Below, piece by piece: positions 5,642 to 49,700 of a stretch of 64,000 nucleotides of DNA. The notes beneath the pieces were generated by a model, which saw only the letters and a list, made by a program, of their open reading frames with translations, was not told where the DNA came from and made no database searches. Each line of letters opens with the position of its first letter. The stretch's first letter is position 1. The stretch lies in the NCBI RefSeq assembly GCF_000764305.2, contig NW_025942170.1:25963-89962 (forward strand), written 5' to 3'. The DNA is from Hyalella azteca. Its lineage: Eukaryota > Arthropoda > Malacostraca > Amphipoda > Hyalellidae. Both the position numbers and the translations under genes were made by a program.

Positions 5642-5728
5642 TCAAGCTGATGCTCCACCTTCGTCGTCCTCCGCCTCCAGGTCGTCGATAGGCAGGTCAC
5701 AAAAATGGTGACTCACCATCTTCCTGAA
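5642..5728 (-). CDS. Possible acidic terminal exon after the duplicated CPT1 donor
   Basis: In the frame of the preceding exon, the second copy of its end reads through its donor into [18 protein letters not shown] and a TGA stop at 5642-5644. The composition is coding-like, and the upstream TTCAG of the copy could act as an acceptor. An acidic tail is not a standard CPT1 feature and the catalytic C-terminal part is missing, so this may be a chance ORF or a mis-assembled last exon. Confidence 0.3.
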   Translation of the reverse strand, partial: FRKMVSHHFCDLPIDDLEAEDDEGGASA

Positions 5729-8700
5729 GTATGGTGCACACACAAGATTATGGTGAGCACACCACAGAGTATGGTGAGCACACCACAGAGTATGGTGAGC
5801 ACACCACATAGAGTATGGTGACTCACCATCTTCCTGAAGGGCTCAAAGTTGATGTCAGGAAGGTTGGAGTTGGTGACCTGCTGCTGGGGCTGCTGGGAGG
5901 TGCTCAGCGTCCACGGCCGCTTGATTACGTTCTCCAGCAGCTCGCAGTCCTGTAACATATATAATATATTAACTAGCTCATATAATATACTAAGTCGTAT
6001 GATACATTAACGCATATAATATACTAACTAACTCTTATAATATATTAATTCATATAATATACTATATAAGTCGTATAATATACTAACTGATATAATATAC
6101 TAAATAACTCCTATAATATATTAACTCTCTTATAATATACTAACCAACTCATTTAATATACTAACTAACATATAATCCTAACTAACTCACAAGTGATACT
6201 AACTAACTAACTAATAGAAATACTAACTAACAGATACTAATTAACAAACATAATATGTAACTTACAACTTACTCAATTAATGGCATTAAATATTCTCAAT
6301 TAATTTTAATTTCTGAATTAATATCATATTAATAAAACCAATGTCGCTCACTTCCACTTTCTAGGGAAGGCTGGAGCAATATTCATTTATTTTATTGTTC
6401 ATCATGTTTGGAATTAAAGTCCAAATGTAGAATTTATATAACCTAGCAAACTGAAATAATATCAAAGATTATTCTATTCTCAGCATATATCGCTCACATT
6501 GACTTATTGGCCCATTAAGTCAATGTTTAATAGTGGGCCTATGTTCACTATTAAATAGTGTATACGGGCGGTGTAAGATTTGTTTCATTATCAAAGGTTT
6601 GAAATTTATAAAAGTTGGCGCTCGAAATGTTTTCAATAGAAACTATCTAGAAAACTATTATTTTCATAGTTAAAGTACAGTAAAAAATATTTTCGAAATA
6701 TTAGGGGCCCTACCAAGTGTGTTGTGTATCGTCTGCTATTTTAAATTATTAAGGAGACTTGGAAATTAATTAAAAATACTGATGAAAAAGTTTTTCTTTT
6801 GGGAATCGAGTACGAACAATTTGGGACTTTAATGGCATTGAAGGCAAAATGTCAAAAAAAATATAACTCAGTACTCACTGCAGTGAGTGACAGAGAGCGC
6901 ATTTTCCCGTCGACGAAAATGGAAGTCACGGACGGACAGACGGACGGACAGTCAGACAGACAGACACAGACGGACGGACATGGCGAGCACAATAGTGCAT
7001 TTTTTCCATAAATGAGAAAATACGCTAAAAAGAGCATGGCCACACGTATCACAGGACACAGAGCATGGCCTCACGTTTCCGAGGACAGAGAGCGTGGCCT
7101 CACGTACCCGAGGACTAAGAGCGTGGCCTCACGTACCCGAGGACAAAGAGCGCAGCCTCACGTATCCGAGTACAGAGAGCATGGCCTCACGTATCCCAGG
7201 ACAGAGACCATGGCCTCACGTATCCGAGGACAGAGATCGTGGCCTCACGTATCTGAGGACATAGCATAACAAGTCTTACGTATCCGAGGCCCCTAGAGAC
7301 GACGTAGAGGGCAAAGAGGTGCCTGTCGATGCCCTCGCCGTTCATCGCTGCCTTGTAGAGGCTCTGGTGCCTCTCCCCGGCCTCCCTCAGCAGCGCCAGC
7401 TTCTGCGTCCTGCTCACCGTGTCCTCGCTCATCGCCCTATAAGCAGTGACCATTTAATTATATATTGTTTTATATATAATATATATATACATTTATATTA
7501 TATATATAATATTTATATTATATATAAATTGTGTTATATTGTATAGTTATTTTTGTATGTTATATATTATATATGCGGAGCTCACTGCGTCCTCGCTCAT
7601 CGCCCTATAAGCAGTGACCATTTAATTATATATTACTTTATAATATAAAGTTATTTAAGTATGTTATATATTATATATGCGGAGCTTAACTTCTATCACG
7701 CCGCTCTGACAGCAGTGAGCACTTAATTATATACCTATTGTCTTTGTTATCAATGGATGTTATATTACCTCAATATTATTATTATTAATTTGTACATCAG
7801 GACGTTAATTTACATATATTAGGTAAATTATATCCAATGTAATATATTATTATTCAAGATCTTTAATATAAAGCAGTTGTGACGAAGGCGTGACCCACCT
7901 GACGAAGGCGTGACCCACCTGACGAAGGCGTGACCCACCTGACGAAGACGTGACCCACCTGACGAAGGCATGACTCACCTGACGAAGGCATGACTCACCT
8001 GACGAAGGCATGACTCACCTGACGAAGGCATGACTCACCTGACGACGGCATGACCCACCTGACGAAGGCAGAGCTCTCCCTCGTACAGGACCGGACGGTC
8101 TCGGTCCGGCCGTGCTGGTAGAGACGTGTGGCCGAGGCCTCGTAGGTCTGCACGAAGCGGCCGCCGGAGTCCCTGAAGTAGGCGAGCTGAAGGGCGATCT
8201 GCACGAAGGCGTCGGGGCTGATGAGGGCCTTCTTCAGCACGCCCTTCCCGAAGGCGGAGTGGTGCTCGATGAACAGGTCCAGGTCGTCCGCTTGCTGCGG
8301 GGTAAACTATGGTTAATCAGGTATAAGGAGGATAAGGTTAACCTCACGTGAAGGATAACCAGAAGAGTAAGGGTATTGGGTAACCTGACGTGAAGGGTCA
8401 CCAGAAGAATGAGGGTAACCAGAAGAATGAGGGTAACCTGACGTGAAGGATAACCAGGAGAGCGAGGGTAACCTGACGTGAAGGGTAACCAGGAGAGCGA
8501 GGGTAACCTGTCGTGAAGGGTAACCAGGAGAGCGAGGGTAACCTGACGTGAAGGATAACCAGAAGTGGAGAAAATAAGCAATGGAGAAAGGTTAATCAGA
8601 CATGGGAGGTTAACTTAGCGTAGCAGGTAAAACTGCTGGTCCCTAATCTGAGGGATTACTATCCTAGCCACACCAGGGCGATGCTGGGGTAGAAGGCGTG

Positions 8701-11700
8701 AACGTTAATTGGCGTAATGGACGCTAATGGGCATAATGGACGCTAATGGATGGCATAATGGACGCTGATGGATGTCAGAGGGCACCTGGAGGTTGGCATG
8801 GGCGGCTTGGGTGATGCTGTGGGCGAGGGCATCCGTCATGTCCCAGATGATACGGCGTGGGGGACTGTGGGGGCCCTGACGGAACTCCCGCGGGGGAGGC
8901 ATCACCTCCCCGTTGTCCAGGTAGCGCTTCTCCAGCACCCTGACCAGGGGGGTGGTGGGGGGTTAATAAGAGGGGCTCATTAGTCAGGGTATTAATGAGG
9001 GGGGACTCGTTAGTAGGGCTTTAATGGGGAGGGGACGTACAGTGGATGATCGATGAACATTCAATAGTCATGACACTCGCTCATTAGTCAAGACACTCAC
9101 TCATTAGTCATGGCATTCACTCATTAGTCATGACACTCACTCATTAGTCATGACACTCACTCATTAGTCATGACACTCACTCAATAGTCATGACATTCGC
9201 TCATTAGTCATATTAGTCATGACACTCACTCAATAGTCATGACACTCACTCATTAGTCATGACACTCACTCATTAGTCATGACACTCACTCATTAGTCAT
9301 GACACTCGCTCAATAGAAATGGCACTTACTCACTAGTCATGACACTCACTCGTTAGTCATGGCACTCACTCATTAGTCATGGCACTCACTCATTAGTCAT
9401 GGCACTCGCTCATTCATCATGACACTCATTAGTCATGGAACTCACTCATTAGTCAAAACACTCGATCATTAGTCATGGCACTCGCTCATTAGTCATGGCA
9501 CTCGCTCATTTGTCATGACACTTACTTATTAGTCATGGCACTCACTCATTAGTCATGGCACTCGCTCATTAGTCATTGCACTTGCTCATTAGTCATGCAC
9601 TCACTCATTAGTCATGGCACTCACTCATTAGTCATGGCACTCCCTCATTAGTCATGGCACTCACTCATTAGTCATAGCACTCACTCATTAGTCATGGCAC
9701 TCACTTATTAGTCACGGCTCTCACTCATTAGTCACGGCACTCCCTCATTAGTCATGGCACTCGCTCATTAATCATGGCACTCGCTCACTAGACATGGCAT
9801 TCACTCATTAGTCATGGCACTCACTTATTAGTCATGACACTCACTCATTAGCCATGACACTCACTCATTAGTCATGGCACTCACTTATTAGTCATGACGC
9901 TCACTTATTAGTCATGACACTCACTCATTAGTCATGAAATTCGCTCATTAGTCTTAGCACTCACTCATTAGTCATGGCACTCACTTATTAGTCACGGCTC
10001 TCACTCATTAGTCATGGCACTCACTCATTAGTCATGAAACTCGCTCATTAGTCATGACACTCACTCATTAGTCGTGGCACTCGCTCATTAATCATGGCAC
10101 TTGCTCACTAGTCATGGCATTCACTCATTTGTCATGGCACTCGCTCATTAGTTATGACACTCGCTCATTAGTCATGACACTCACTCATTAGTCATGACAC
10201 TCACTCATTAGTCACAGCACTCGCTCACTAGTCATGGCACTCGCTCATTAGTCATGCCATTCGCTTATTAGTCATGGCACTCGCTCATTAGTCATGGCAC
10301 TCACTCATTAGTCATGATACTCACTCATTAGTCATGGCACTCACTCATTAGTCATGGCACTCACTCATTAGTCATGGCACTCACTCATTAGTCACGGCAC
10401 TCACTCATTAGTCATGGCGTACTCCCAGACGTGTCCCAGGGCGGGCGCGTCGGCCATCGAGTGCTCGGCGTTGAAGCCACATTGGCCGTCGGGGAAGAAG
10501 CAGACGTTGAGGCTCTTGTCGAACCTGCGCATGCGGACCATGTTAGTGGGTAACTGCTGTTATCGTTTGGGTTATGTGGTAATAGAACATAAAAAACTGG
10601 GAATTACAGTGATAACAACACGGAATAACAGTGATAACAGCAGGGAATAACAGTGATAACAGCAGGGAATAACGGTGATAACAGCAGCGGTTCAGTTTGT
10701 TCATGAATAAAAAGGGATAACAACCGCATCACCTCAGGCGCCCACATAATTTAGTTTAGTGTTGAATAAAAATGAATAAAACCAAGTTTCTATCTTTCCC
10801 CAAGAGCCCCCGTTGACCCCTCAGGACCACCCGGTCCCCTCCCCTCCTACCAGAGGGTGCGGCCATCAGCATGCAGAAGCGTCTTGCCCTTGTCGTGGAT
10901 GTCCTTAGGAGGGGCGTCCAGCAGCACCACCTGCCCAGGCGGGCATACAGAGGGTATAAAGAGGGCATCAAGAGGTATGAAGGATACGGCAAGAGAGGTT
11001 AACGGCTGAGTAGAACGTTTGTTAAAGGGTAAATTGAGGATACAGCAATGTTTACAGTGAGTAATATGTTGAGGGTATATCAAGTCTACGTTAAAGTTCA
11101 AGGTGAAGACCATGTTCAGGGTATATCAAGTCTATGTTGAAGGCCGAGTTCAGAGTTAGACCAGACATGAGGCTTTGTAATCACGGCGAATGTCTCGCCC
11201 AGTCCAGGATTATGCATGGATACTCAAGCAGTTGGTAATACAACACGTTGCTAAAAGTAACACTTATACCATATTGTATAGCCACGATAATACCATTGTA
11301 CAGCCACGATAATACCATTGTATAGTCACGATAATACCATTGTATAGCCACGATAATACCATTGTATAGCCACGATAATACCAATGTATAGTCACGCTAA
11401 TACAATAACAGGGAAAATAGTGCATTCGCTTATTGCAGGTAGCAGAGACCCTGTAAGTGCTTAACTTCCATCGAAAATAATTATTGATTCAGAAGCCTTG
11501 TAAAATTAGGGATTAGCTCAGACGCAATTAAATTACTGGATTATTGGGAGGGAAGGGAGAGGCGAGAGTATTTATTGGTAGGGAGAATTAGGTGAAGAGT
11601 TAAGAGAAGGGCCCAGTGAAGGGCCAAGTCAAGAGCAAAGAGAAGGGCCCAGTGGAGGGCCAAGTGAAGGGCCCAGTGGAGGGCCAAGTGATGGGCCCAG

Positions 11701-14700
11701 TGAAGGGCCAAGTCAAGAGCAAAGAGAAGGGCCCAGTGGAGGGCCAAGTGAAGGGCCCAGTGAAGGGCCAAGTGAAGGGCCAAGTGAAGGGCGCAGTGAA
11801 GGGCCAAGTGAAGGGCCAAGTGAAGGGCGCAGTGAAGGGTGCAGTGAAGGGCGCAGTGAAGGGCCCAGTGAAGGGCCCAGTGAAGGGCCCAGTGAAGGGC
11901 GCAGTGAAGGGCGTCGCACCATGAAGGCAGCGCGGTGGATGATGTCCAGGTTGTCCCTGTTGATGCCCTTAGCGAAGTGCTGCTCCATCAGCGTCGCCCA
12001 CTGCGTCCTGGGGAGCCCCGTGAGCGCCGGTACACTGCGCTCACTGTCGCTCACGCTGCCTGCTCACGGGGGGGACATGAGGGGACATGAGGGGATATGA
12101 GGGGACATGGTCAGAAAGTGGACAATAAGTAGCTTTTTTGCCCCTTGTTCAATCACTCCCGTCATGAATATGGGCAATAACAACAATACCTCCACCACCA
12201 GCAGGATTGTCACCACCACGCCCCTTCCCACCCGTCCTGTTGGGCGGTGCCTCCCACGACTTCTTCTCATCCCCTCCCCCACTTCCACACCACCCTTCCC
12301 CCACCACCCACACCACCCTCCCCCACNNNNNNNNNNNNNNNNNNNNNNNNNNNNNNNNNNNNNNNNNNNNNNNNNNNNNNNNNNNNNNNNNNNNNNNNNN
12401 NNNNNNNNNNNNNNNNNNNNNNNNNNNNNNNNNNNNNNNNNNNNNNNNNNNNNNNNNNNNNNNNNNNNNNNNNNNNNNNNNNNNNNNNNNNNNNNNNNNN
12501 NNNNNNNNNNNNNNNNNNNNNNNNNNNNNNNNNNNNNNNNNNNNNNNNNNNNNNNNNNNNNNNNNNNNNNNNNNNNNNNNNNNNNNNNNNNNNNNNNNNN
12601 NNNNNNNNNNNNNNNNNNNNNNNNNNNNNNNNNNNNNNNNNNNNNNNNNNNNNNNNNNNGTAGCACAATACTGCTCGTTATTGACAATGTAGTACACTAA
12701 TGTACTGCACGAAGTAGCACAATACTGCTCGTTATTGACAATGTAGTACACTAATGTACTGCACGAAGTAGCACAATACTGCTCGTTATTGACAATGTAG
12801 TACACTAATGTACTGCACGAAGTAGCACAATAATGCTCGTTATTGACAATGTAGTACACTAATGTACTGCACGAAGTAGCACAATACTGCTCGTTATTGA
12901 CAATGTAGTACACTAATGTACTGCACGAAGTAGCACAATACTGCTCGTTATTGACAATGTAGTACACTAATGTACTGCACGAAGTAGCACAATACTGCTC
13001 GTTATTGACAATGTAGTACACTAATGTACTGCACGAAGTAGCACCTGTCTCTTATACACATCTAGATGTGTATAAGAGACAGGACTAGACGTGACCCACG
13101 AGACGGTAGCAGAGTTCCTGGAGGGGCAGACGCTGGACGAGGCGCTGGCGCAGAAGAAGATCTTCATTTGTGACCTCGCGGTGCTCGAGAACCTGCCCTG
13201 CAAGGACGGCAGAATTGTCAGTAACGCTCGCTTGCGAACTAAAATATATGTTTATTTTTTGTTCGATTGCGAATATAAAATACATGAGGGTAACATGAGG
13301 GTAATGTGAGGGTAACATGAGGGCGTAGAGCAGACCACGGCACCACTTACGAACAAAAATATATGTTAGAAGGCTCTTTAAATATGCATTTCTTAAGAAC
13401 GAGACTCGAGTTCTTACGAACTCGAATTCGGTTCTCTATAACACGAGCAACTGGTGGATGTAGCATATGCACATCTGTATCTTTCGTGATATGATATGCG
13501 GATATGAGTATATATGTGTATGTGCATATAGATTGATGTGATATATGCGTACGAGTATCTAAGTATATGATATATGCATATGAAACATATGGATATCATA
13601 ATGTATATCATGAATGTATATTTGTTTAGTTGGATATGATCTAAAAGCTTTCCCGGATAATGAGCAACAGTGAAGGAATGAAGCCACGGGGAGTGGGCTC
13701 CCAAATTACCGATGTTTACTTGACGATGGTGACTTAAAATTCTCATTTGCGTGAGAGCCTTAATTAATATAGGTCGTTTTTTAGTGAACCTTGTTGCGTA
13801 TTACTCGAGTCTGCCATTGCAACTTCGTGTTAAGATCATGTCTGTTTCATGTCTAACAGCTGCCTTACATGTTAAGATCATGTCTATTTCATGTCTAACA
13901 GCTGCCTTACATGTTAAGATCATGTCTGTTTCATGTCTAACAGCTGCCTTACATCTGTCTCTTATACACATCTAGATGTGTATAAGAGACAGCTAGAAAC
14001 TAGTGTTGTGCATGCTGCTAGTGTACTAGAAACTAGTGTTGTGCATGCTGCTAGTGTACTAGAAACTAGTGTTGTGCATGCTGCTAGTGTACTAGAAACT
14101 AGTGTTGTGCATGCTGCTAGTGTACTAGAAACTAGTGTTGTGCATGCTGCTAGTGTACTAGAAACTAGTGTTGTGCATGCTGCTAGTGTACTAGAAACTA
14201 GTGTTGTGCATGCTNCGCTCGTACTGCGCCATGACGCACCTGACGGTGGAGAAGAGACGCTCGTACTGCGCCATGACGCACCTGACGGAGGAGAAGAGAC
14301 GCTCGTACTGCGTCATGACGCACCTGACGGTGGAGAAGAGACGCTCGTACTGCGCCATGACGCACCTGACGGTGGAGAAGAGACGCTCGTACTGCGCCAT
14401 ACAGATGGGTATTGTGCCACGCAGACACAGCGGCTGTAGCTGCTCGCGGTCTATCAGGCGGCGCATGACGCACAGCGAGTAGATCACGTTAGCGGCGCGA
14501 GATACCTGCCATAATCACTATTATTATTATCTTAATATTATAATTACTAGTATTATTATTCTTTTATTATTATCATTATTATTATTAGAGAAACTAAATT
14601 ATTATTACCTATTATAAGCATAGCAAATAGATTATGTTAGCGGCACATGATACGTGGCATGTTAATCAATTATTCGCATTACAAGAACAATTTACACATA

Positions 14701-17700
14701 AATGTGCAAAACATACACCAGAATAATGTGAATAATGTTACATTATAAATGAATTTATAATATAACGATACATTATAATATTTATATAATTTATATAATA
14801 TATATAATTATAAAATAAGGATATATTATATTTACATAATTTATATAAATATAAATAAATGATAGGTGTAATGTTAGGACCTGCTTGGTGGTGGGTGCCC
14901 AGCTGTAGTGGTCCAGACAGTAGTAGTTGCTGTTGATGGCCAGCGGTGTACGGTTCATTAGGTACGCATACTTCTCCCTGTCAAACATCAACATTAAATG
15001 CGCCAATACATGCATTAAATAAGTTAATACATAAAGTAAATGCGTCAATATATGCGTATGCGTCAATACATACATTAAATAGGTTAATACATGCCTTAAT
15101 GCAACAATACATGCACTAATTGCGTCAATAGATACATTAAATAGGTTAATACAAGCGTTAAATGCAACAATACATTAATTAAATACGTCAATACATACAT
15201 TAAATGCACCAATACAATATATGATTACAGTTTTAGTACACAAGTCTATCCAGATAATAAATTAAATTACAGTTTCAACTGAAATTATATTTTCCTTGCA
15301 TCTTATTCGGCACGGACAACCTATTTCTATTACAATTGTGTAAATAAAAATTCAGGTTGAGCAGTTTAGGATAATATACACTGGGAAAAGTGAGCCAGAT
15401 TTTGTCTAAATTGTGATACATTTATCGCTCTTGAGTACCGTACCTATATCATTCTGACCCAGTATGGCAGTAATGTACCAGTAATAAGTCGTATCAATAT
15501 TACGTGTGTTCTTCTATAGGTAAAGCAGTGTCAGCATTTGGACAATGTAACACGTTGATTTACGTGTGTTCTACTGTAGGTAAAGCAGTGTGGCAGTATT
15601 TAGACAATGTAACACGTTGATTTACGTGTGTTCTACTGTAGGTAAAGCAGTGTAGTCATGGGCAGGGTGGGTCATGGGCAGGGTGGGTCATGGGCAGGGT
15701 GGGTCATGGGCAGGGAGAGTCATGGGCAGGGTGGGTCATGGGCAGGGTGGGTCATGGGCAGGGAGAGTCATGGGCAGGGTGAGTCATGCATACATTGGAC
15801 GGAATACGATGATAAAGTGTGCATTTTCCCTCAGACACACTTATGACTCAGCGCCATCGACGTTGACAATAAACCGGAATAAAATTCAGACGCGGGCCCG
15901 ACTCTGCATCAGGCGCCGCCCAGGACTCGGGCAGCGCGTAAATCAGCCGCTCATGTCCGCCTCGGCCGGGCTTGAAGTGCAGCCTCTGAGCAGCTTGTAA
16001 GCTCGGCATGACTCGGCCATGACAACCTATGTTATAATCTCACGACATACTTATCATACCCCTAGGTGACGAGAGCCACCACCACCACCATCACCACACC
16101 ACTCACCCATGGTAGCGTGCAGAGGAGGTACCGGCATGCGTGGTAGGGACCGCTGGCAGGAGTACAGGCTGGGCTGGTACCCCGACACGAGCTTCACACA
16201 CACGCCCCACACGCGCGTCTTCAGGGACATCTCCCGGGGCTTCTCGTCTGCGATGTTATACTTTATATCATTGTTATCAATGTAGCATCTTATATATATC
16301 ATTCTTATCACTTGTATCATCTTATATATCATTGTTATCACTTGTACAATCTTATATATATCATTGTCGTTACTTGTAGCATCTTATATACCGTATCATT
16401 ATTGTCAATGTAGAATTGTTATGATTTGTATAATTGTTATCACTAATATATGTCATTTTTATCACTTTGTAGCATTATATAACTTATATATACCATTGAC
16501 ATCACTTCTATAATTGTTATCACAGATATGTGTCATTGTTATCACTTTGTAGCATTATAACTTATATATACCATTGGTATCACTAATATATGTCATTTTT
16601 ATCACTTGTATAAATGTTACTAGTTACATAGTAGGGTACATTGAATCCACTTATGATACATTGTTATCACTGATACAGTCAGCTACATAGTTATCTGTAC
16701 ACTCACACATCCAGCCGCGATACGCCAGCAGTATACGCAGCAGATATTGTCGTACACGCATGAGAACCACGAAGAACCCGACACTGATGCCGCACGACAC
16801 CACGGCGTTGCGAACCCACGTGGGTGAACCTGCGGGGAGAACCACAAATGAGGGAACGGCATTGTGTGGGGAACCACATGTGAAGAAACCGTGTTGCACA
16901 GTGAACCACATGTGAGTGAACCGTGTTGCACGGTGAACCACATGTGAGTGAACCGTGTTGCACGGTGAACCACATATGAGGTAAATGATTTGTATGGTGA
17001 ACCACATATGAGGTAAGGCATTACACGGTGAACAACGCGTGAACTAAATCACAATTTACAACAGTTAGGAAGCATCAAATAACACTGTATTTGATGCTTC
17101 CTAGGAAGCATCAAATACAGTTCACAATTGTTAAAGGGAACAATGAATGCAATAACATTCATTCATTCCAAGGGAAATGGGCAGATCTCATTAGATAAAC
17201 ATCAAAATATGAAATATTCAACAGATATTCAACAATACACATTCCACAAATAACATGGCAGTTCATTCACCAGGGTGAGTGTTTTCAATTTTCAACCCAG
17301 CATGGTGGTCAAATGAGAGTATTTTCAACCCACGGTGCAAGCATGGTGGTCAAATGTGCAGTATTTTCAACCCACGGTGGTTAAATGTGCAGTATTTTCA
17401 ACCCACGATGCAGGTATGCAAGGTTAAGATAACCCCACAGCTTCTGCATGGTGCACTGAAAAGGTGATAACACACAGCCTTCTCAACAGACATGGAGATA
17501 ACACAAGACAACAACATCATAAACATCAATGCTGCATAAGCAGCATAACAACAACAAATAATAACCTTGATTAATGTAAGATAGTTAATTAGATTATTCA
17601 AAATGAATTTAGATAACAATGATATTAAGGGTATAGGGCCATTCATTAAAATGACTGTGATTAAAATTAATGCAATTTGTATTCAAAAATTCTTTGGAGT

Positions 17701-33285: not shown

Positions 33286-33287
33286 AT

Positions 33288-35540: not shown

Positions 35541-35933
35541 ATCCACAGTCCACGATTGCTTTTTCTTAGCCCATTGTAACCTTGTTTTTCTTCTGTTTTT
35601 GTGTTAATGATGGCTTTCGTTTAGCTTTTCTGTATGTAAATCCCATTTCCTTTAGGCCGTTTCTTAATTAACAGTTCGGTCACAGACGTTAACTCCAGTT
35701 TCCTCCCATTCGTTCCTCATTTGTTTTGTTGTGCATTTTCGTTTTTTGAGACATATTGCTTTAAGTTTTCTGTCTTGACGCTCTGATGTCTTCCTTGTTC
35801 TACCAGTATGTTTGCATTTAACAACCTTCCCATATTGTTTATATTTGGTCCAGATTTTAGACACAGCTGACTGTGAATAACCAACATCTTTTGCAACATT
35901 GCGTGATGATTTACCCTCTTTTAGGAGTTTGAT
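35541..35933 (-). pseudogene. Tc1-like transposase, N-terminal DNA-binding part
   Basis: The minus strand encodes IIIKLLKEGKSSRNVAKDVG, YSQSAVSKIWTKYKQYGK and RTRKTSERQDRKLKAICLKK, a paired-type helix-turn-helix. The start methionine is lost to an insertion at about 35934. Confidence 0.85.
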
Positions 35934-36645
35934 AATAATATAATATAATAAAGTTATCACTTTAGAATTAGAATCAGTTATCACTTTAAAATTAGAATCA
36001 GTTATCACTTCAGAATTAGAATCAGTTATCACTTTAGAATTAGAATACGTTATTTAGCAAAACTTTCAGTAAATCATTGAGAACGAATATGAAACGTTTT
36101 AGAAATTTCGATGAAATGTAATTGAAATTGGATGAATGTCACTTTATTAAGAGGAACTTAGCGAGCGAGCTTAATGCTCTTCCAGAAGCAGTCATTAAGA
36201 GCGGCACAGGCTAATTTAACGACTTACGGCTTCTTTGTGGGAAGAACAGGCCTTCTGGGTGCAGGTGAGGAGTTGTCCAGTTGAAGAACCGGCTAGAGGC
36301 TGAGGACTGTCATCTCGCAGAGTAGGAACTACGTAGAACGGACGGGCATAGACCACGCGAGACGACACATGGACGAGTTGAATGTGTGAAGGTTGAAGTG
36401 AATCTGTCTGTTGCCGGCCAGAGATGCAAGATTTCTGCTTTGCTGCAGGGAAAGCCTCGGAAGCAGTGAGAAAAGTCGCAACCAGCCCGGCCGCTAAATG
36501 ACTGCTTTGAATAAAATTATTAGAATTGACAATAATGACGTTAATTTAATAAAGGGTGAAGATTAAATCGTTCTCAATGGTTTACAGAAAGGGATGGACC
36601 TATAAAATTGAAGACATATGCACGAAAGTTTGTAAACTTTCCGAC
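35934..36645. other. Second insertion in the Tc1-like element, with a short tandem repeat
   Basis: It opens with four units of TTATCACTTTAGAATTAGAA plus TCAG, then unassigned sequence to the point where the element resumes. Confidence 0.55.
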
Positions 36646-36905
36646 AGGTGTTTCCATAATTTTTTCCTCAGAATTGAGTGATTCCATATTTTTTCCCTCT
36701 GCTTGGTCTAAAAAAATTACCTTTACTGACTGCACAATTTTTTTTCTTGATTTCTTATAGCGTTTCTTAAAGCCAGAAGGTTGCCATTTGAAATGACTTT
36801 AGTTTTGTGTCATGCCTGTAATCTGTTTTTTTTTTCTACTAAGATAATTAAACAGCTGAATGAACATCCTCCGAGGCCGGTCCATAATTTTTGCCAGGGG
36901 TTGTA

Positions 36906-37341
36906 GCACCTTATGGTAGTTACAACGGTATTTGCAATTATTGTTATAATTATAGGCGCAATGATAGTTACAATGATTACAATGATTAAAATTACGGCGA
37001 TAGTCTCTTTTGTGCCGGTTTGTTGGAAATCCTGATGAAATAATGAACGAGCAGCATCGCGATTATTTTTTTATCATAATATTCACGAGTAGCATACATG
37101 AATATTCAACACATGGCCGGTATAAATTTTTCTGGAATATTCAGATGTACATTTTAACATTCTTCCTGCATTCAGTCTCTATTCAAGTATAATATGCATG
37201 CGCAGGGCACTATATTTATAATCTACATACAAGAATCTAATGTTTTTTAAAATAGTATTCATACTCAGAATATATTTAATTAAATCATGATTTGTATTCA
37301 TTTTGGAAAATCATGCATGAGCAGAATATGTATAAATATAC
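36906..37341. other. Unassigned AT-rich DNA
   Basis: No feature recognised. Confidence 0.5.
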
Positions 37342-37738
37342 ATATGCGTACAATTTATGACCAGAGAGTGCATTTGAATTTTCAAGGAGTTGAACAATTC
37401 TTAGATGACGTTGGTAGATCAAAAGGCAGATTTAGCAAATAATAATATATTAACGACGTTTCGAATGTAGCAACATTCATTTTCAAGTTAAGAGAAGCAA
37501 AATTTCTGGCTCGAAATTTTTGTGTTGTATCCTATTTACGTGTATTATGTACTTATGTCCAACCAAATTTCACTATTCAATGCTTCTCTTAACTTGAAAA
37601 TGAATGTTGCTACATTCGAAACGTCGTTAATATATTATTATTTGCTAAATCTGCCTTTTGATCTACCAACGTCATCTAAGAATTGTTCAACTCCTTGAAA
37701 ATTCAAATGCACTCTCTGGTCATAAATTGTACGCATAT
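37342..37738. repeat. Long inverted repeat, 158-bp arms and 81-bp spacer
   Basis: 37342-37499 and 37581-37738 appear perfectly complementary, including ATTAACGACGTTTCGAATG and its inverse. A transcript would form a long hairpin. Part of an arm reads as an ORF tail followed by a CGAAACGTCG motif that also occurs at 61722, suggesting a retroelement 3' end in head-to-head copies. Confidence 0.9.
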
Positions 37739-37739
37739 A

Positions 37740-39381
37740 ATCAAGAAATTTCTGCCATCTTATAATAAAATATACATATGTATATGTATATGTATACGTG
37801 GGGCCTGCACGATGGCCCCGTATCACTCGTTATCTATAACGACGCGTTTTATGTGTCTATACCTATTATCTATAAGGTGTGTTACATGACTGCGCGTATT
37901 GCATGGTTTAATTAATCACCCATTACTAGACAGCGTGGTATTTGACTCAATACATGTTAACCCCACCTTCAGAAATCTTTGCAATATTTATGACTTATAT
38001 TATTTAATATATTGTTATAATTACATTATAAGAATATTTATAACAATGCCACATAATAATCTTTAGACAGACTAAAGACATCACAAGAGAGCCTGAAAAT
38101 CCTCATTGAATTGAAATTTCTCTGAGTGTATAAATAAATCAGTTGAGTAATCGAGCTGCTTACTCAAACCGTTCACGAACTGACTTTAAATTCCCAGCCT
38201 GCGACTATGCCACGTTGAACGTGCTAGCCTGCTACGAAGCAGGCCGGTATTTAATAAGAAATATATTTTAAGCAGAGAGTTGTGGGTGTAAAATCGAGCT
38301 CGCTGCGAAAATTTAGCGATGCGAAATCTGCGACAGCTCGAACGTGATCTCGAATTTAAATATTTCCTAGTGAGACATGGTAAGACTTAACGTATGATAA
38401 CGGAATAAACCATGCCAGTTTCAAATTATAAATCCCCCTATATATATAGGGCCCCGAATTAAAGCCGGTATTTATAATACAACTAATGCTAAAACATCAG
38501 TGTTGCCGATACCTGTGTAACTGATACCACAATTACTGATGCCTGTGCTGATGATCGGCGTAGAATTACTCACACTGTTGACTATGGTAAATTTAGAACT
38601 TTTGGCTTCGATTGTTAAACGAACCATTAGAGCAAAATCGCAATAGTAACGAAATAGGTAGTTGTTAATTTTCTAGCAATTGTTTATACGGGAACCTAGG
38701 CGAACCTATTTTATTGCACGTATTTCTACTAGGAGCCTATTTTCTAGCAACTAATTATACGGTTCCCCATGGAAATGAGTTCCCCTGAGTCGGATAATTT
38801 TAAAAGTAATATTTTAATACAAACTATTTTAAGTGGGATTACGGAGAATCATTCAAATATAGACTGAACACGCGTTCAAAAATAACACGTTAGTGTAAAA
38901 TGACTACATTTTTACATTGACTCAATATCTGAATTACATTCCCATATATCAGTACTGATATATAAACGATGAGAAGAATCTATGTAAACCGTTTCATTGT
39001 TGCATCATCCATTAGCAGTTTCAGGACCAAGCAATGTAAAGAATGCCATCGAAAACAAACGAAATATCAGCTCCTAAATCAACTAATAGTGCAAAAGCAC
39101 CCGGAAAATTTTGCTGATAACTTTAAGAGGTTTGGAATATAATGATAATAATTGCCCGCACGCCCTACTCAACGAAGGTTTCTAAGAAATTATTCAATTC
39201 CAAGAACTTCTCACCTTGAATAAGTTTTGTAAGCTAGATTATGATAAAAAAAACTTCGTGTATGTAATCATTATTTATTTATGTGAGTTCGTTAATCGAA
39301 AATATATTTCATATGAATTCTGTAGTGATACGATTCAAATTTGTTGCAACCTCTAGCATCTGTTTAGTTAACCTACCCTAC
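37740..39381. other. Intergenic DNA upstream of SLC3A2
   Basis: Mostly unique AT-rich sequence. No exon, RNA gene or clear repeat is recognised. Confidence 0.5.
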
Positions 39382-39613
39382 CAGTGTTGCCAGATGGGCC
39401 TTTTTCAGGCCAAGTTTCGCAGATGTGGCCTTTTTTAAAGGCATTGGCCTGACAAAAAATAATTTGGCCTTTTTATCCGTTTTGGGCCTTTTTTATGAAA
39501 AGTGTAATTCCCGTTTTATTTAAGAATTTCTTATTAATTTCAAATGAGGCCTTTTGTGGCCTTTTTTGTGAGCTAAATTGGCCTTTTTCACTCGGCTCCA
39601 TCTGGCAACCCTG
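39382..39613. mobile_element. hAT-type MITE in the SLC3A2 5' region
   Basis: The terminal inverted repeats are CAGTGTTGCCAGATGG at the left and CCATCTGGCAACCCTG at the right (one mismatch in 16). Both sides have the 8-bp duplication TACCCTAC (39374-39381 and 39614-39621). The inside is made of GGCCTTTTT-rich sequence. Eight-bp duplications are typical of hAT elements. It ends 136 bp before the SLC3A2 start codon. Confidence 0.9.
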
Positions 39614-39749
39614 TACCCTACTCAATTGGCAAGCAGCCAGCGCGGCCATAACGTAGTGACGTACGAGTTGGCTAAGCACGTAGTGCTGCTGTTGCGATAT
39701 TTTTAACCTCGCATTAAGCTCGTGACTTCGAAAAATTAATTTTGCCAGT
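39614..39749 (+). promoter_or_regulatory. Likely SLC3A2 promoter / 5' UTR
   Basis: 136 bp of mixed composition between the MITE and the ATG. It has CpG-containing ACGTAGTGACGTACGAG and no clear TATA box. The role is inferred only from position. Confidence 0.4.
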
Positions 39750-39851
39750 ATGGGTGAGGAAAAGGACGGTGTTCCCAACGGCGAGATGGCACCTCAAGAA
39801 GAGTCGTCAAAAGTTTTGCTTAATGAAGGAGCAGATGGAGCGAAAGCTGAG
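39750..39851 (+). CDS. SLC3A2: SLC3A2 coding exon 1
   Basis: The start is MGEEKDGVPNGEMAPQEESS, then KVLLNEGADGAKAE: 34 codons, phase 0, donor GAG|GTATGG. It is the hydrophilic cytosolic tail. No earlier in-frame ATG lies close upstream. Confidence 0.85.
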
Positions 39852-42800
39852 GTATGGCGCCATTGAGTCGACATCACATGGCCGGTTATAGGAAATGCGA
39901 ACCTAGGGTGTGGCGTTCTACAATTTGCTTCTTTGTTGAATGGGTTTCTTTCATTATTTTGACTTTATTATTAAAGACAAAACACATCAAAATTTTTAGT
40001 CATATGATTATCAATAGTCTTTTTTTTATACCTAACTACTGTAGAGTGTAGACTAGACTGACTAGTAGTAGTAGTAGAATAGTTGGGACAGAAAGTGGAC
40101 TAAAATTTGTCCATTCCAGTAGCTCATTACAATACCTATTTCATTACTTTTTAAGTTTAAATATTAGGTATTATTGCAGATTAACTACATCCAAAAAAAA
40201 GGGTGTTTTTTTTTAATTATATGTTTTTTAAAAAAATCGGTTTTCCGATGCCGACCGCCAAAAATGGATTTCAGATTCGTAATCTACACCCCAAAAAACA
40301 TATAATTAAAAAAAAAAACACCCTTTTTTTTGGATGTAGTTAATCTGCAATAATACCAAATATTATTTCATGGATTATGCATAACTAGAATTAGAATTTC
40401 CCAACTTAGCACTGGAATGATAATCTTATGGCTCAATTAGGCAATTATGCAAACAATTTGATATGATATAGTACCTAATTCTAGCTGCAGATGAGAATTT
40501 ATCTAGCACTAGCAGGAATCTTGACTTCTTGTGGCTCAGAAAATGGCACTATGGCAGGAAAGCTCTAGTTGTGGCTTATATATATTATTATCCTTAAGAC
40601 CTTAACCCCTTTAATTTAATGCTTATCATGCCCTTGTTAGAAAATTATTTTCGAATTTTATATTTTTATTATTAATTGTTCTATGTTGCAGGTTGCTTCT
40701 TTATTAAAGGCCTAGAAAATAATTATGTTGAATATATCAAAAATTTAGTTTGAAATTACTGCATCTAACAAAAAAATGTTGACATATATCTCATCTGAAG
40801 CATTGAAATTGCATCTCAAAGGTACTAATTTACATAGATATCTGTTATAGAAAACATTGTTTTGATAGTTGTGCTTCTGAAATTGCTTGTAAAGCATTCT
40901 TGCAAAGTTGAAAGTTGCATTGACGATTGTGTTGTTAAATGCTGTATAAATATGCATTGATTGTGAAAATGCTGTGATGTCATCATGTCAATGCAATTGC
41001 CTTTAGGGCCAAAAAATGTTCCAAAGTATCAGATTTAAAACATTGGAATTTTCCAAGTTATCAATGAATTTTTGCCTATTTTGAATAGCCAGCAGAAGTT
41101 TCATAAAATAACAAGTAAATGAGATTGTTTTATGAATGATTTTCAAAAATCATTATTGAAAATAGGCAGTTTTTCTTAGTTTTCAATTAAAAAATTTAAA
41201 AAAGGCCACAGGAATGGGTAAAATTGGCCAGATTAGCAGGTATTTTGTCCAATTCACAGGAGGCTTGTCCAAATTATCCATTTTGGAAACCCTGCAGCTT
41301 GAAAGTAATAATTTATGAAATTTTTTGATATTGTTTTATGAATTATTTTCAAAAATCATTGAAAATGGGCAATTTTCTTTATCCAGGTGCAGGCAGCTGA
41401 CATCAAAGTCGACATCGCAACCGAGGATGAGTTCCGTGGACTCACCAAGTCTGAGCTCATGAAGTACGCCAAGGATCCATTTTGGGTTCGACTCCGCATT
41501 ATCCTCATGTTCCTATTTTGGTCAGTATAACAATTAGCAATTATATTTAATGTAAAGTTTACCTAATGTCGAATATTGTTATCCTCGTGTTCCTATTTTG
41601 GTCAGTATAACAATTAGCAATTAAAGCCAATTATATTTAATGTAAAGTTTACCTAATATTGAATGTTGTTATCCTCATGTTCCTATTTTGGTCGGTATAA
41701 CAATTAGCAATTATATTTAATGGAAAGTTTACCTAATGTGGAATATTGATTGATATATTTTCAACCTGTAGTTCTAGCATGTGCTTCAAAGTGTAATTTT
41801 CTCAGCATTTTGATCTGATAAATACTATCTTTTTCTTCTGATTCTGATAGTAATGGTTAGCATGCTGGCCACTGTGGTCAATCCTGTACATTAATATGGT
41901 ATCAATAATTTCTGCAAGAAATTTTAGTCGATTATCTACAGTGAAGATGGGGATTTTGCTCTCTATAGCAGCATTTTCTTATCAACTTGATCTGATTCAC
42001 TGAATGTAGCTTTTGGTCTGTTTAACTAGATGAATAATCTTGTTTATTGTGTATTATCTTGTTTATTGTGTATTGATATTGACTCAATGGAGATTTAGGA
42101 TTGATAGAATTCTGTGAGCACTTCCTGAAAAGCAATAGCTGCCAATTTATATATACTCTACCAATTTTTTATCATATATTTGAACATGTTGGTGTTGCCG
42201 GGTCTAAAATGTCTCGTGCCGTAGGTGAGATAAACCTGTTATCTGCTTTTAACTAACTGGCAACAACCCTACTCTGAATGAAGGAAAATGAAAGACTGGT
42301 TCTAATGCAAAATGAATTAAAATATGGGACAGTAAATAAGCACACAACTTAATAAAATTGCAAATGAAATGGTTGTTTTAATTTGAAAGGTGTAATGAAA
42401 ATGTGCTTGTTAATTGGATGTAAGGAGCATGGACATGTGGAGATGAGTAGATTTAACTGCAAACAGAAAGAACAGAATAAAAATGCAAATCATGAATGAC
42501 TGATAATCTGATGGGATGTAGAATGTAAACAAAGCAAGAACCATTAAACTCCATAAAACTAGTAAAAGCTCATCTCCATATTGTGAATTTATTTTTAAAA
42601 CTAATGAGTACTCGCATGAGGATTGAATTGAAAGGAATCACAAGTGGACAGATAAATAAAGGAATACTGCCAGATGAATTGTGAACATAACTTGCTGAAA
42701 TTAATTATAACCATAATCCAATATAATAAATTAACTTCCTCAAACTAGACCATATCAGTCAGAGATGAACACAATCAAAGTAAAATGCAAGGGAACACAA

Positions 42801-45800
42801 AAGGTTAATATCAATGAAATTAGCAAAATAACAAAGACAAAACTTAACCTAACTTATCAATGAGTAAATGAAATAAATTTCTATGTTACTCACCAATGCA
42901 ACTGAGTGCCCAGGCTGAGATACTGAGTAGGAATCCAAATACTAAGAGTGATAATTCAAGTTTGCAAATTATACTTTGGTCATCTACACTGAAAAAGCTA
43001 AAAATATTGAATTTAATTTAAATTGAGTTGGATTGAGAACTGAAGAAATATGATAAATAGTAAAGAAAGACATGAAGGTTGGGCTACACAGTAGCCTAAT
43101 TCAACCTCCGGTAACATTGGTTGTTTTGAACATGCTAGGTGCATTGAAAGTGTTAACACGGTGCATGCATTGAATCATTAATATGTTGGATACATTGAAC
43201 TTGATAACAGTTGCATTGAACATGTTGGATGAATTGACCATTTTTAGCGCATTTTCTCATTTATGGAAAAAATGCACTATTGTGCTTGCCATGTCTGTCC
43301 ATCCATCCGTCTGTCCGTCCATGACCTCAAGTTTTTGTCAATGTGAAAATGCACTCTGTCACACACTGCAGTGAGTACTGAGTTTTCTTTTTTGACTGCA
43401 GGGCAGCATGGGTGGCTATGTTGGTGCTGGCTATCTGGATCATTGTCAAAGCCCCCGCCTGTGAGCCTCCACCCACCATCACCTGGATGCAGGAGAGTGC
43501 CATGGTGGAGGTCAACCCAAGTGCCATGGATCCTCAAGGTATGAATCATTATATTGCATCCCATATATACCTATATATATATTAGTGAACATTGATATAC
43601 ATGCTATAAACCTGTGTTTATCTTGGTCAATTACTCTTATCCTTATCATGTTATCAGATGATCAAGTAATTCTATCTGTATTGCATTGCACCACTCAACA
43701 ATAATGAAACCTGAATTTTTTTACTATAAAGACGTATTTGTTTGTATCAATTCCCCTCATCATCCACCATCATGGGCTAATATCATCATGTTCTAAGCTC
43801 TATCATCCATCATATGCTAATATATCATGTTCTACCAGACATGTGAACCTGGTGTAAGCTTTAGTCCTGGTATCATTCTACCTCCCAGATCTGATTAAAT
43901 CGTCCTTATCAATTTACCTCATCCTCACCATGAAATGATAATAATAATATCCTCCTATATAATATTAATAATATCATCCTATATGATATTAATAATATCC
44001 TCCTATATAATATTAATAACATCATCCTATATAATATTAATAATATCTTATTTTGCAGACTCGGTGAACCTGGTGAAGGCTCTGGGCTTGTCGTCCTTCT
44101 ACATCCCCGCCCTCATCAGCGGCCACGACTTCTACAAGCTTAACCCTGCGTATGTGGCGGAGCAGGTCACCAGCCTGCTGCAGGTACATGATGAGCAGGT
44201 CACCAGCCTGCTGCAGGTACATGATGAGCAGGTCACCAGCATGCTGCAGGTACATGATGAGCAGGTCACCAGCATGCTGCAGGTACATGATGAGCAGGTC
44301 ACCAGCATGCTGCAGGTACATGATGAGCAGGTCACCAGCATGCTGCAGGTACATGATGAGCAGGTCACCAGCATGCTGCAGGTACATGATGAGCAGGTCA
44401 CCAGCATGCTGCAGGTACATGATGAGCAGGTCACCAGCATGCTGCAGGTACATGATGAGCAGGTCACCAGCATGCTGCAGGTACATGATGAGCAGGTCAC
44501 CAGCATGCTGCAGGTACATGATGAGCAGGTCACCAGCATGCTGCAGGTACATGATGAGCAGGTCACCAGCATGCTGCAGGTACATGATGAGCAGGTCACC
44601 AGCATGCTGCAGGTACATGATGAGCAGGTCACCAGCATGCTGCAGGTACATGATGAGCAGGTCACCAGCATGCTGCAGGTACATGATGAGCAGGTCACCA
44701 GCATGCTGCAGGTACATGATGAGCAGGTCACCAGCATGCTGCAGGTACATGATGAGCAGGTCACCAGCATGCTGCAGGTACATGATGAGCAGGTCACCAG
44801 CATGCTGCAGGTACATGATGAGCAGGTCACCAGCATGCTGCAGGTACATGATGAGCAGGTCACCAGCATGCTGCAGGTACATGATGAGCAGGTCACCAGC
44901 ATGCTGCAGGTACATGATGAGCAGGTCACCAGCATGCTGCAGGTACATGATGAGCAGGTCACCAGCATGCTGCAGGTACATGATGAGCAGGTCACCAGCA
45001 TGCTGCAGNCCTGTGAACGATGTGAAGATCTCATTTGTATCAGCTGTTCAAAGTTGAGCTCTAAGGAGTACTCATTTCTCCAGAAATCTAAATTGCTTCA
45101 TTGGTTTTGCCGTGATTGCGAAAAACCAACTCTTGGTGCTCGAAAAAGAGAGGAGTTGGTGGAAGAGCACGGCAATGAGTCGAAATTGTTGAATGATGTA
45201 GTAAACTCCTTGAGTGAGATGGTGCTGTCTCTTATACACATCTAGATGTGTATAAGAGACAGGTTTAGATCTATGAACAAGGCACGAAATGGAAAAGAAT
45301 CGGCGACAGGCCACATCAGGCCTACACTTCAGAGCCGACATCACTATGTTATGTTATGTTATGTTATGTTGAACACATTATGCATGATGCAGATGCTGAC
45401 AGGTGCCGGGGATATCTAGATCATTTATTCATGATGCAGATGCATTCAGGAACGCATATCATTAACTCTGACAGTGGTACATCTTCTATCATTTATGCAC
45501 TTAACATCATAATGAACACATTACGCGTAATGCAGGCTCTGACGGGTGCTGGAGTGCACGGCGTAACAGACTTCGTGCCCAGTCCTGTGCTGCCCTACAA
45601 CTCCTGGGTGGTAAACACAAGCTATGCACACCTCTTCAACCTGCCGGCACTGACACTCAACTATGACGAGGAGGACCTCAGCCCCGAGCTGCAGGTGACA
45701 GTGGGTAGCTTAGTGGGTTGCTTGAAGTGTAGCTTAATGTGGGGTTTAATGGGTGGTGTGTAGCTTAATGGATGGTGGGTAGCTTGATGGGTAGCTTGGT

Positions 45801-46715
45801 GTGTAGCTTAGTGGGTAGCTTAATAGGTGGTGTGTAGCTTAATGGGTGATGTGGTTTAATGGGTGGTGTGTAGCTTAATGGTGGTGTGTAGCTTAATGGT
45901 GGTGTGTGGCTTAATGGTGGTGTGTAGCTTAATGGGTAGTGTGTAGCCTAATAGGTGGTGTGTGGCTTAATGGGTGGTGTGTGGCCTAATGGGTGGTGTG
46001 TGGCCTAATGGGTGGTGTGTGGCCTAATGGGTGGTGTGTGGCTTAATGGGTGGTGTGTAGCCTAATGGGTGGTGTGTGGCNNNNNNNNNNNNNNNNNNNN
46101 NNNNNNNNNNNNNNNNNNNNNNNNNNNNNNNNNNNNNNNNNNNNNNNNNNNNNNNNNNNNNNNGGTAGCTTGGTGTGTAGCTTAATGGGTAGCTTGGTGT
46201 GTAGCTTAATGGGTAGCTTGGTGTGTAGCTTAATGGGTAGCTTGGTGTGTAGCTTAATGGGTAGCTTGGTGTGTAGCTTAATGGGTAGTTTGGTGTGTAG
46301 CTTAATGGGTAGCTTGGTGTGTAGCTTAATGGGTGGTCGGTAGCTTGATGGGTAGCTTGGTGTGTAGCTTAATAGGTGGTGGGTAGCTTAATGGGTGGTG
46401 TGTGGCTTAATGGGTAGCTTGGTGTGTAGCTTGATGGGTAGCTTGATGGGTAGCTTGATGGGTAGCTTGATGGGTAGCTTGGTGTTTAGCTTGATGAGTA
46501 GCTTGATGGGTAGCTTGGTGTGTAGCTTGATGGGTAGCTTGGTGGTATAGCTTAATGGGTAGCTTGGTGTGTAGCTTAATGGGTAGCTTGGTGTGTAGCT
46601 TGATGGGTAGCTTGGTGTATAGTTTAATGGGTAGCTTGGTGTGTAGCTTGATGGGTAGCTTGGTGTATAGTTTAATGGGTAGCTTGGTGTGTAGCTTAGA
46701 ATATATTGTTGCTCA

Positions 46716-46747
<32 letters not shown>

Positions 46748-49700
46748 ATATATACATATTAGTTCATGTCATAGTGTGTGTAGCTTAGAATGTAGCTTAG
46801 TATATGCAATTGCTCATGACTTAGTGCGAGCTTAATAGTGATGGAATCAATGTGTATATAATTTGAGATATGCTATTAAATGTATAGCGTTGAGTGCAGC
46901 TTAGTGATCCGGCTAATAATGTTGAATTAACGTGATGTTTGAGTGGCAGAAATTGCTGATTGATATTGACAATGATGTTTTGTTACCGTAATGTTTACGT
47001 GTTTGTTAGGTTGCAGAAATTGCTGATTGATATTAACATTGACATTTAATTAACGTGATGTTCACGTTGCAGAAAGTGTTGATTTTCTGGAAGAACGAGT
47101 ACAACATCACGGGCTTTACGGTGCCTGCTGACGAGACCGAGAAACAACCTGAGCTTCATAACCTCACCACCTCCCTCAACCATGACCTAGCTGACCAGGA
47201 CATGTGAGTCATGTTATAGCTTACTGACCTCAACCATGACCTAGCTGACCATGACATGTGAGTCATGTTATAGCTTACTGACCTCAACCATGACCTAGCT
47301 GACCAGGACATGTGAGTCATGTTATAGCTTACTGACCTCACCGTAATCTATGTAGATTTTGTCCTTGATTCATGATAATTATTTGAATGTACAAGTACTA
47401 TTATGTCGAATGAGTGAGTATTCTAATGTACCTATCTCTATGTTATTTATCAGAGTGTAATTCTTCATAAGTAAATGAATATGCTGTTGTTATAACATGA
47501 TAACATCTAACCTACCCTGGACAGCGTGGTGGGGGAGGGGATGGTTGACGTGTCAGATGCTGTCAGCAACCTTAACCTTCCTGGCAGCTTCCAGCAATTC
47601 CTGAAACTGAACTCTGACTCCTGGCCCTACTATAAGGTATGGCCTCGTGACAGGAGAAGTGGGTGGCCCCCTGACAGTGCTGGTGTGTGGCCCACAATGG
47701 GGCCAGTTGTAAAAGTTGTCAATAATTGGTCAAAGCTTTTCATTTGATTTTGCCATGAGTTGTATTCAAAATAATTCTCTTTAAATGGTTCAGAGAACCT
47801 AAAAGGCAAATAGAAGATGTATATGCCGTATAACTTGAATACATATTAATATGTGTCACAGGGTGATCGTAGAAATACCTACTACTATATTCTATTATAT
47901 TATTTATTAGAGTCAAGTATGTCAACTATAATGTCTTGAATCATTGACAATGATTCATTGTCAATAGAACATTTATAGAAAATAGTTTAATAACATGCTC
48001 GATTCTCAAGGTGTTCTTTACTCTCTCAGCACGTAAGGACCGAATCAAAAGAAAGATATTTAATGAAAATTTGTTTGGCCAAAATACCGTAGCGCGGCCT
48101 TTAGTCGTAGTTTAATATGAAAAAAATCATAAATTACTTTAGCGCATTCATTCAATTGCAGTCTTTAGGCAGACAATGAGATCATTTCAACGGATAACAG
48201 GAAAATGTCAATGGTATTGATTTCTGTAATTAATATTATTGTCTTGTTTCCAGTTTATGCCGGTAGTGGCTGACCATCGTACCGCCTCACCCGCTCAGAT
48301 GCCGGCAGTGACGATGGCCCTTATGCTCTCCCCTGGCACTCCCATCCTGCAGGTGATGTGACGTTCAATGTATTAAAATACATAGGTACCGTCAACTGGG
48401 GTGACTTTGGCCACCCGGGGTGACTTTGGCCACCTGGGGTGACTTTGGCCACCTGGGGTGACTTTGGCCACCCGGGGTGACTTTGGCCACCCGGGGTGAC
48501 TTCGGCCACCTGGGGTGACTTCGGCCACCCGGGGTGACTTTGGCCCTGTCTCTTATACACATCTAGATGTGTATAAGAGACAGACCTGCGTGAGCCTGAA
48601 GGGGACGGTCTCAGGGGTGGGCAGGATCTTGGACCCACCTGCGTGAGCCTGAAGGGGACGGTCTCAGGGGCTGTCTCTTATACACATCTAGATGTGTATA
48701 AGAGACAGATGCTGCACTGTTGCTGCGTAATGCTGCAGTGTTGCAGCGTAATGCTGCAGTGTTGCTGCGTAATGCTGCAGTGTTGCTGCATAATGCTGCA
48801 GTGTTGCTGCGTAATGCTGCAGTGTTGCTGCGTAATGCTGAAGTGTTGCTGCGTAATGCTGCTATGCTGCTGCGTAATGCTGCTATGCTGCTGCGTAATG
48901 CTGCTATGCTGCTGCGTAATGCTGCTATGCTGTTGCGCAATGCTGCAGTGTTGCTGCTCTGTCCTTTGAGACCCTCATATTGCTGGTGAATGACTTCCTC
49001 AGTCTTCTTAATTTTTGTAATCCAAAATCTATTTTCACATAATGAGTGTAATTTATTGATCACTTTATTTGATTAAGTACACTGTAATTTATTAATTACA
49101 TTAATTCACATAATGAGTGTAATTTATTAATCACGTTACCGTCATTTATTAATCACTTAAGGCGTGACGGTAACAGCTCTTATTGTTGTCAGAGTAACTA
49201 CCCTAGACGTGACGGTAACAGCTCTTATTGTTGTCAGAGTAACTACTCTAGACGTGACGGTAACAGCTCTTATTGTTGTCAGAGTAACTACTCTAGACGT
49301 GACGGTAACAGCTCTTATTGTTGTCAGAGTAACTACTCTAGACGTGACGGTAACAGCTCTTATTGTTGTCAGAGTAACTACTCTAGACGTGACGGTAACA
49401 GCTCTTATTGTTGCCAGAGTAACTACCCTAGACGTGACGGTAACAGCCTCTTGTTCCGCAGATCCCAGGGAACAACACGGAGAAGTTCGTGACCAGCCTG
49501 GGGGGCGTGGTGGCTGCGTGCTCGGAGCTTCGCTCCAAAGACGCTTTCAAGTTCGGCGCCACGGAGTTCGTCAACTCCACCGCCAACGTCGTGGCGTTCA
49601 CCAGGTGTGGGGCATGAGGTTCTGGAGGAAGGAGGGTCTGGCTCATGATGTGCCTCGAGTGTGATGTGTCTGGTCATGATGCGCCTCGAGTGTGATGTGT

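Follow-up and report, generated by a model that had tools for sequence, protein, structure and literature searches.

In a 64-kb stretch of DNA from the amphipod Hyalella azteca (bases 25963-89962 of contig C3321 in a 519-Mb assembly; hereafter the window), the ends of many exons in two genes, CPT1 on the minus strand and SLC3A2 on the plus strand, are found again further down the intron, which raises the question of how tandem repeats come to lie across splice sites and whether they are more frequent there than elsewhere in introns. Copy one of each such array holds the exon end together with its donor, and an effect of the exon-intron edge is supported by sampling in other genes. We consider it probable that these intronic minisatellites are founded by duplication across the exon-intron edge, with births that cluster at edges instead of being spread evenly along introns. 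Site coordinates are positions within the window, while loci outside it are given in transcript-oriented locus coordinates.

Donor-spanning repeats in CPT1 and SLC3A2

In the two genes, the sites tested in the window were 22 donors and 20 acceptors, placed via the reading frame, and the CPT1 exons were confirmed with the protein of Hirondellea (tblastn). The protein joined from these exons is most similar to those of two amphipods, Hirondellea gigas (81% identity across 56% of the query) and Trinorchestia longiramus (69% across 84%), while the second gene matches the Pfam SLC3A2 N-terminus (E 2.9e-29) and is alignable to human 4F2hc. A pairwise copy test was applied, in which a segment that reaches 4 bases or more into both exon and intron is compared at shifts of 10-500 with a score threshold of 15. 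Nine of the 22 donors (19273, 18350, 14366, 10405, 8059, 5827, 41520, 44183 and 47203) have a downstream copy by this test and lack an upstream one, and donor 7280 scores 12.5, just under the threshold. The gene-matched expectation is 2.29 donors (Poisson p 6e-4); random points in the window introns were a first copy only in 11/120 and a last copy only in 9/120 cases, or 49/450 and 40/450 in a larger draw. If the coordinates of Tandem Repeats Finder (TRF) are taken strictly, only 6/22 donors are spanned, because the first copies at 19273, 7280, 5827 and 41520 are gapped, two-copy or diverged; TRF alone misses gapped and two-copy cases, and the pairwise test was therefore added. The initial annotation had counted 10 of 23 exon ends as first copies, which is essentially right, as at all ten positions the exon end, the GT donor and some intron sequence are found again downstream:

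CPT1 donor 19273 (exon 1), 18946..19313, minus strand: two copies at a period of 314 bp, copy one with 41 exon bases, score 41.5
CPT1 donor 18350, 18217..18365, minus strand: 37-bp unit, 4.0 copies, 16 exon bases in copy one
CPT1 donor 14366, 14216..14400, minus strand: 42-bp unit, 4.4 copies, 35 exon bases in copy one
CPT1 donor 10405, 9061..10418, minus strand: 20-bp unit, 67.7 copies, 86% match, 14 exon bases in copy one
CPT1 donor 8059, 7880..8070, minus strand: 20-bp unit, 9.6 copies, 12 exon bases in copy one
CPT1 donor 7280, 7031..7289, minus strand: 29-bp array, diverged copy one with 10 exon bases, below threshold
CPT1 donor 5827, 5705..5839, minus strand: copies at a period of 110 bp with 13 exon bases, and a 21-bp array in between
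SLC3A2 donor 41520, 41499..41748, plus strand: unit of about 90 bp, 22 exon bases in copy one
SLC3A2 donor 44183, 44160..45008, plus strand: 33-bp unit, 25.7 copies, 99% match, 24 exon bases in copy one
SLC3A2 donor 47203, 47174..47340, plus strand: 54-bp unit, 3.1 copies, 30 exon bases in copy one

The lengths and copy numbers at 14366 and 44183 are unsafe, because these arrays stop at N (14215 and 45009). The repeats have the head-to-tail, imperfect copies with units of about 10-100 bp that characterise a minisatellite; at 19273 and 5827 the spacing is wider and just two full copies are present. The second exon-end copy at 19273 (18958-19005) contains a stop codon, and the 20-bp array at 10405 occupies most of its intron up to the acceptor at 8939. 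When printed side by side and compared by eye, the units at different sites are unrelated except for the donor motif, in keeping with the earlier statement that they do not form one mobile repeat family, and likewise little sequence is shared, by eye, between the flanks of the first and second copies.

Splicing from the first donor and the fate of later copies

Splicing from the first donor joins CPT1 exons 9-15 into a single open frame of 336 residues, and the Hirondellea protein can be followed across the exon joins with no extra residues at 19273, 18350, 10405, 8059 and 7280. These are the five of the seven CPT1 array donors at which continuity is checkable, the next exon not having been found at 14366 and 5827. 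The 8059 junction, between exons 13 and 14, is also covered by alignment to carnitine acetyltransferases of solved structure, and SLC3A2 is alignable across donor 41520 with 4F2hc, which brings protein continuity to six of the ten window sites. At the six checked sites, then, it is the first donor that is predicted to give the conserved protein.

The later copies retain much of the donor. Over 20 donor repeats, GT is kept in 150/175 later copies, and in 88/91 once the two longest arrays are set aside, so that later copies may be under weak constraint as donors. In the longest array, the 20-bp array at 10405, GT is present in just 42/66 copies (38/59 by a copy-by-copy walk), and its T is among the two least conserved columns. 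Per-array identity to copy one is 0.86-0.99 at exon columns -12 to -1, 0.98 and 0.96 at the GT, and 0.60-0.88 at +4 to +14, the step that is predicted if the copies drift while copy one alone is constrained. Base periods are divisible by three in 7/20 donor repeats, and hence there is no preference for frame.

Exon-intron edges inside and outside the window

Three families were searched outside the window, namely PF00755 (the family of CPT1), PF00118 and PF00063, giving 187 hits, of which 160 were examined in 28 loci; the 27 hits left out comprise 22 myosin hits, including an exon cluster on contig C3480, and five PF00118 hits. Among the 160 exon hits, 22 have the 3' end and 12 the 5' end within a TRF array, and in one carnitine acyltransferase gene (locus L011, contig C335) arrays hold 5/8 exon 3' ends and 1/8 5' ends. 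Junction prediction was attempted on the 97 of 132 neighbouring hit pairs whose profile positions lay sufficiently close, and 74 yielded a consistent donor-acceptor pair. In these 74 introns the pairwise test finds ten donors that are first copies, against a gene-matched expectation of 2.14 (Poisson p 8e-5), and seven acceptors that are last copies, against 1.71 (p 0.002), both expectations being drawn from 1,022 points; random points in outside introns were a first copy only in 11/584 and a last copy only in 14/584 cases. Outside the window, donors are thus first copies about 4-5 times more often than random intron points.

A stricter birth test assumes that arrays are born evenly over the array-collapsed intron. 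In the outside introns, 10 of 35 arrays span a donor where 1.92 are expected (p about 5e-6), and five span an acceptor, again against 1.92 (p 0.035). For the five acceptor arrays the medians are 3 copies and a match of 77%. Acceptors of the window also take part, as 3/20 are the last copy of a junction-spanning repeat (1.73 expected, p 0.25):

CPT1 acceptor 7436, 7412..7642, minus strand: acceptor and 25 exon bases recur 168 bp upstream
SLC3A2 acceptor 47073, 46922..47084, plus strand: diverged copy 123 bp upstream, 12 exon bases
SLC3A2 acceptor 51276, 51188..51288, plus strand: 40-bp unit, 2.5 copies, the real acceptor being the last copy, with 13 exon bases

The proposal of the initial annotation that duplication is nucleated, or retained, at donors has therefore held in part: the units are unrelated, later copies are absent from the protein where this is checkable, and donors exceed random points, while exclusivity to donors is lost. 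Since acceptors are enriched too, it is apparently the exon-intron edge that is favoured. Both kinds of repeat occur together in 4/74 outside introns, where about one is expected under independence, and including the window five introns carry both, with periods that differ within each intron:

Introns with donor- and acceptor-spanning repeats (donor/acceptor): CPT1 8059/7436; L011 787/2161; L049 473/2061; L051 345/776; L053 2151/3710

The positions of array starts point the same way. In the window, 13 arrays start at donor -40 to +19 (1,320 bp) and 7 at +60 to +299 (5,280 bp), and outside it 13 start in the 4,440 bp at donor -40 to +19, compared with 6 in 15,960 bp further in. Array ends in the window number 10 at 0-19 bp before acceptors (400 bp) and 9 in 4,800 bp further in, with just one outside end in the corresponding 1,480 bp; window arrays thus usually halt just short of the acceptor, whereas donor-side arrays enter the exon. 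In introns with both ends known, the 14 donor arrays have more copies than the 47 internal ones (median 7 vs 2.5, p 0.020), higher identity (95 vs 86%, p 0.021) and greater length (193.5 vs 109 bp, p 0.009). Their GC content is also higher (0.51-0.55 vs 0.36-0.37), in part because the exon is included. Array births that track GC were considered and ruled out, the interior arrays being about as GC-poor as introns (0.34-0.35).

Arrays are unevenly distributed among genes. With a period of at least 10, they cover 31-67% of each 2-kb bin at 1-20 kb of the window, 0-16% at 20-44 kb and 21-58% at 44-60 kb, and among the 28 outside loci cover is below 5% in 16 and 9-56% in 12. Array-rich genes among these loci tend to high GC content at third codon positions (GC3; 0.85 in L054, 0.84 in L011), and L010 and L033 are rich in GC3 yet have few arrays. 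Five consecutive myosin-head hits at G000:C3480:70706-73952 match the same stretch of the profile (about 376-436), an arrangement like that of mutually exclusive exons. Two chaperonin exon hits of L025 (900-1085 and 3777-3962) also match one profile stretch, lie 2,877 bp apart and have identical junction sequence, and this pair probably arose by local duplication not long ago or through duplication in the assembly.

Origin of the arrays

Under the account favoured here, a segment with a unit of 16 to about 314 bp that runs from the exon into the intron would be duplicated in tandem, perhaps by repair of a staggered break or where transcription or replication stalls at the edge; polymerase pausing, R-loops or the step in base composition are other candidate causes. 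The duplication would be nearly neutral, because splicing from the exon-proximal donor still yields a normal mRNA. The array would then expand into the intron as any minisatellite does, lengthening it while the extra copies drift, as copy number and divergence suggest, and a mirror-image process would act less often at acceptors. The simplest form of this account needs one added assumption, that births are concentrated at edges, and it is made because the outside sample contains several times as many junction-spanning arrays as even birth followed by survivorship would give. A bolder version, which is possible and put forward only tentatively, is that exon-intron edges, and donors above all, are hot spots of array birth, so that in array-rich genes the splice sites would be the points from which introns grow outward; breaks tied to transcription or splicing would seed the duplications and so lengthen introns continually, gene by gene and without transposons.

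The strongest competitor to a concentration of births at edges is survivorship alone. According to this explanation, arrays are born evenly, those within exons are purged and those across the edge are tolerated through splicing, with no favour for the edge itself. Tolerance at donors is real, as the protein continuity indicates, and in array-rich genes some edge arrays are expected by chance, namely 1.9 per end in the outside sample. When the strict test is run on the 15 window introns with both ends known, 4 donors and no acceptor are spanned where 1.75 of each are expected (p 0.09 and 1), a non-significant excess. Further observations weigh against a concentration at edges. Few genes carry the signal outside the window: L011 alone supplies 4 of the 10 donors, without it 6 donors and 4 acceptors are left against 1.57 (p 0.0026 and 0.061), and without L011 and L026 4 of each against 1.40 (p 0.04 each). 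A sample of PF00171 (7/13 hits, 3 loci) has no 3' or 5' end in an array, which brings the combined outside hits to 22/167 3' ends and 12/167 5' ends (Fisher p 0.10). Outside splice sites are, moreover, predicted, and 23/97 candidate introns were dropped as failed, several of them in array-rich genes. Donors do not differ significantly from acceptors either: in the comparison of donors with random sites and acceptors that the initial annotation had proposed, the first contrast came out clearly in the outside loci, whereas the second, pooled over window and outside, stands at 19/96 vs 10/94 (p 0.10), so that a lean towards donors is suggestive. Finally, diverging interior arrays may vanish from view faster than edge arrays, in which copy one is constrained and which may therefore remain recognisable longer, an effect judged to be less than twofold. 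Survivorship alone is nevertheless unlikely, given the ten donors and five acceptors spanned outside the window and the denser array starts near donors than deeper in the intron; retention by itself does not predict that junction-spanning births exceed interior ones.

The remaining explanations are less probable still. That the later donors are retained and used, as alternative exon ends or as a splicing buffer, is suggested by the GT kept in most later copies, but this is improbable, since GT retention is not above that of the best exon columns, the longest array has lost GT from many copies, multiples of three are not preferred and the conserved protein follows from the first donor wherever checked. 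Arrays made in assembly, by gap filling or by mate-pair chimaeras, deserve mention because the window contains four runs of N and five untrimmed mate-pair junction sequences, which we take to be Nextera adapters:

Mate-pair junction sequences, 38 bp each: 13045-13082, 13955-13992, 45225-45262, 48546-48583 and 48671-48708

Several of these adjoin near-identical arrays or N, the arrays at 14366 and 44183 being among those that meet an N run, and sequence from different places may be joined at the flanks of the adapters. As a source of the arrays in general, such an artefact is nonetheless very improbable: the other eight donor repeats of the window adjoin neither N nor adapter, many copies differ by substitutions, donor-spanning TRF rows outside the window have 76-98% match, and in introns with known ends the three arrays that lie no more than 60 bp from N or from an adapter are all internal. 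Least credible of all is that the arrays created the introns through tandem duplication of an AGGT-bearing exon segment, a link drawn in the initial annotation. Many units do contain AG|GT, and the 20-bp array takes up most of the intron at 10405; however, true intron sequence is part of the units, and acceptors do not repeat the donor flank: the donor and acceptor repeats have unlike periods in all five introns that carry both, and among the remaining introns with a donor array, those whose acceptor is known show no acceptor copy at threshold.

A supposed third example, an 'ATM-like' fragment at 48584-48670, is an 87-bp piece lying exactly between two of the adapters; being bounded on both sides by mate-pair adapters, this stretch (48546..48708) is a chimaera and was removed from the phenomenon. 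A tblastn search with Hirondellea CPT1 gives no convincing match in the window for residues 183-235, for almost the whole of 315-375 or from 715 onward; the corresponding exons were probably lost or misplaced by the assembly, leaving CPT1 in the window without two internal stretches and its end. Another gene was considered for the stretch between two adapters at 13083-13954, where a weak CPT1 match is seen at 13345-13304 (E 0.40), and the minus-strand frame 13088-13435 gave no match when searched against Pfam. Elsewhere in the window, pieces resembling a Tc1/mariner-type transposase lie on the minus strand at 58945-59106 and 60364-61462; they include a match to HTH_SB, a helix-turn-helix domain (E 3.5e-6, under its cut-off), as well as weak DDE_3 matches.

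The anatomy itself is already known in one gene. A 31-bp variable number tandem repeat (VNTR) of human CBS, c.1444_1467+7(16_21), is described as 24 exon and 7 intron bases repeated 16-21 times (PMC2630376). As in CBS, the unit here is the exon end, the donor and the first intron bases, at ten donors of the window, one of which is below threshold, and at ten outside it; unlike that single-gene case, it recurs with unrelated units at many donors of several genes, and this recurrence is the new part. Copy number at the CBS repeat is known to vary, whereas the present arrays are known from one assembly. Tandem duplications near splice sites that carry AGGT or cross a boundary, and are removed by splicing with the peptide unchanged, are described for intron gain, with Hellsten's ATP2A1, 24-bp AGGT arrays in fission yeast and potato RdRp as examples (PMC4974935); there a new intron arises, whereas here an intron is lengthened at its edge and its donor and acceptor are not copies of the same unit. 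In Trinorchestia longiramus, a related animal, tandem repeats make up 6.18% of the genome, the largest repeat portion, and splice-site position is not part of that account (PMC7062882). Minisatellites within exon-flanking introns are also reported from Caenorhabditis elegans, near alternative exons and tied to splicing; they belong to common repeat families such as CeRep25B, and their units are not described there as containing an exon end (PMC4039745). No description of recurrent donor-spanning arrays was found in the literature searched by title and start of abstract, a search outside which most subscription journals lie.

The question of how introns lengthen is often answered by transposons, and minisatellites seeded at donors offer another route, as in some genes a sizeable share of donors is copy one of such an array. 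This route can be watched through copy-number polymorphism and tested by asking which of several identical donors splicing uses. The arrays are at the same time a warning for gene finding and short-read assembly, since they attract gaps.

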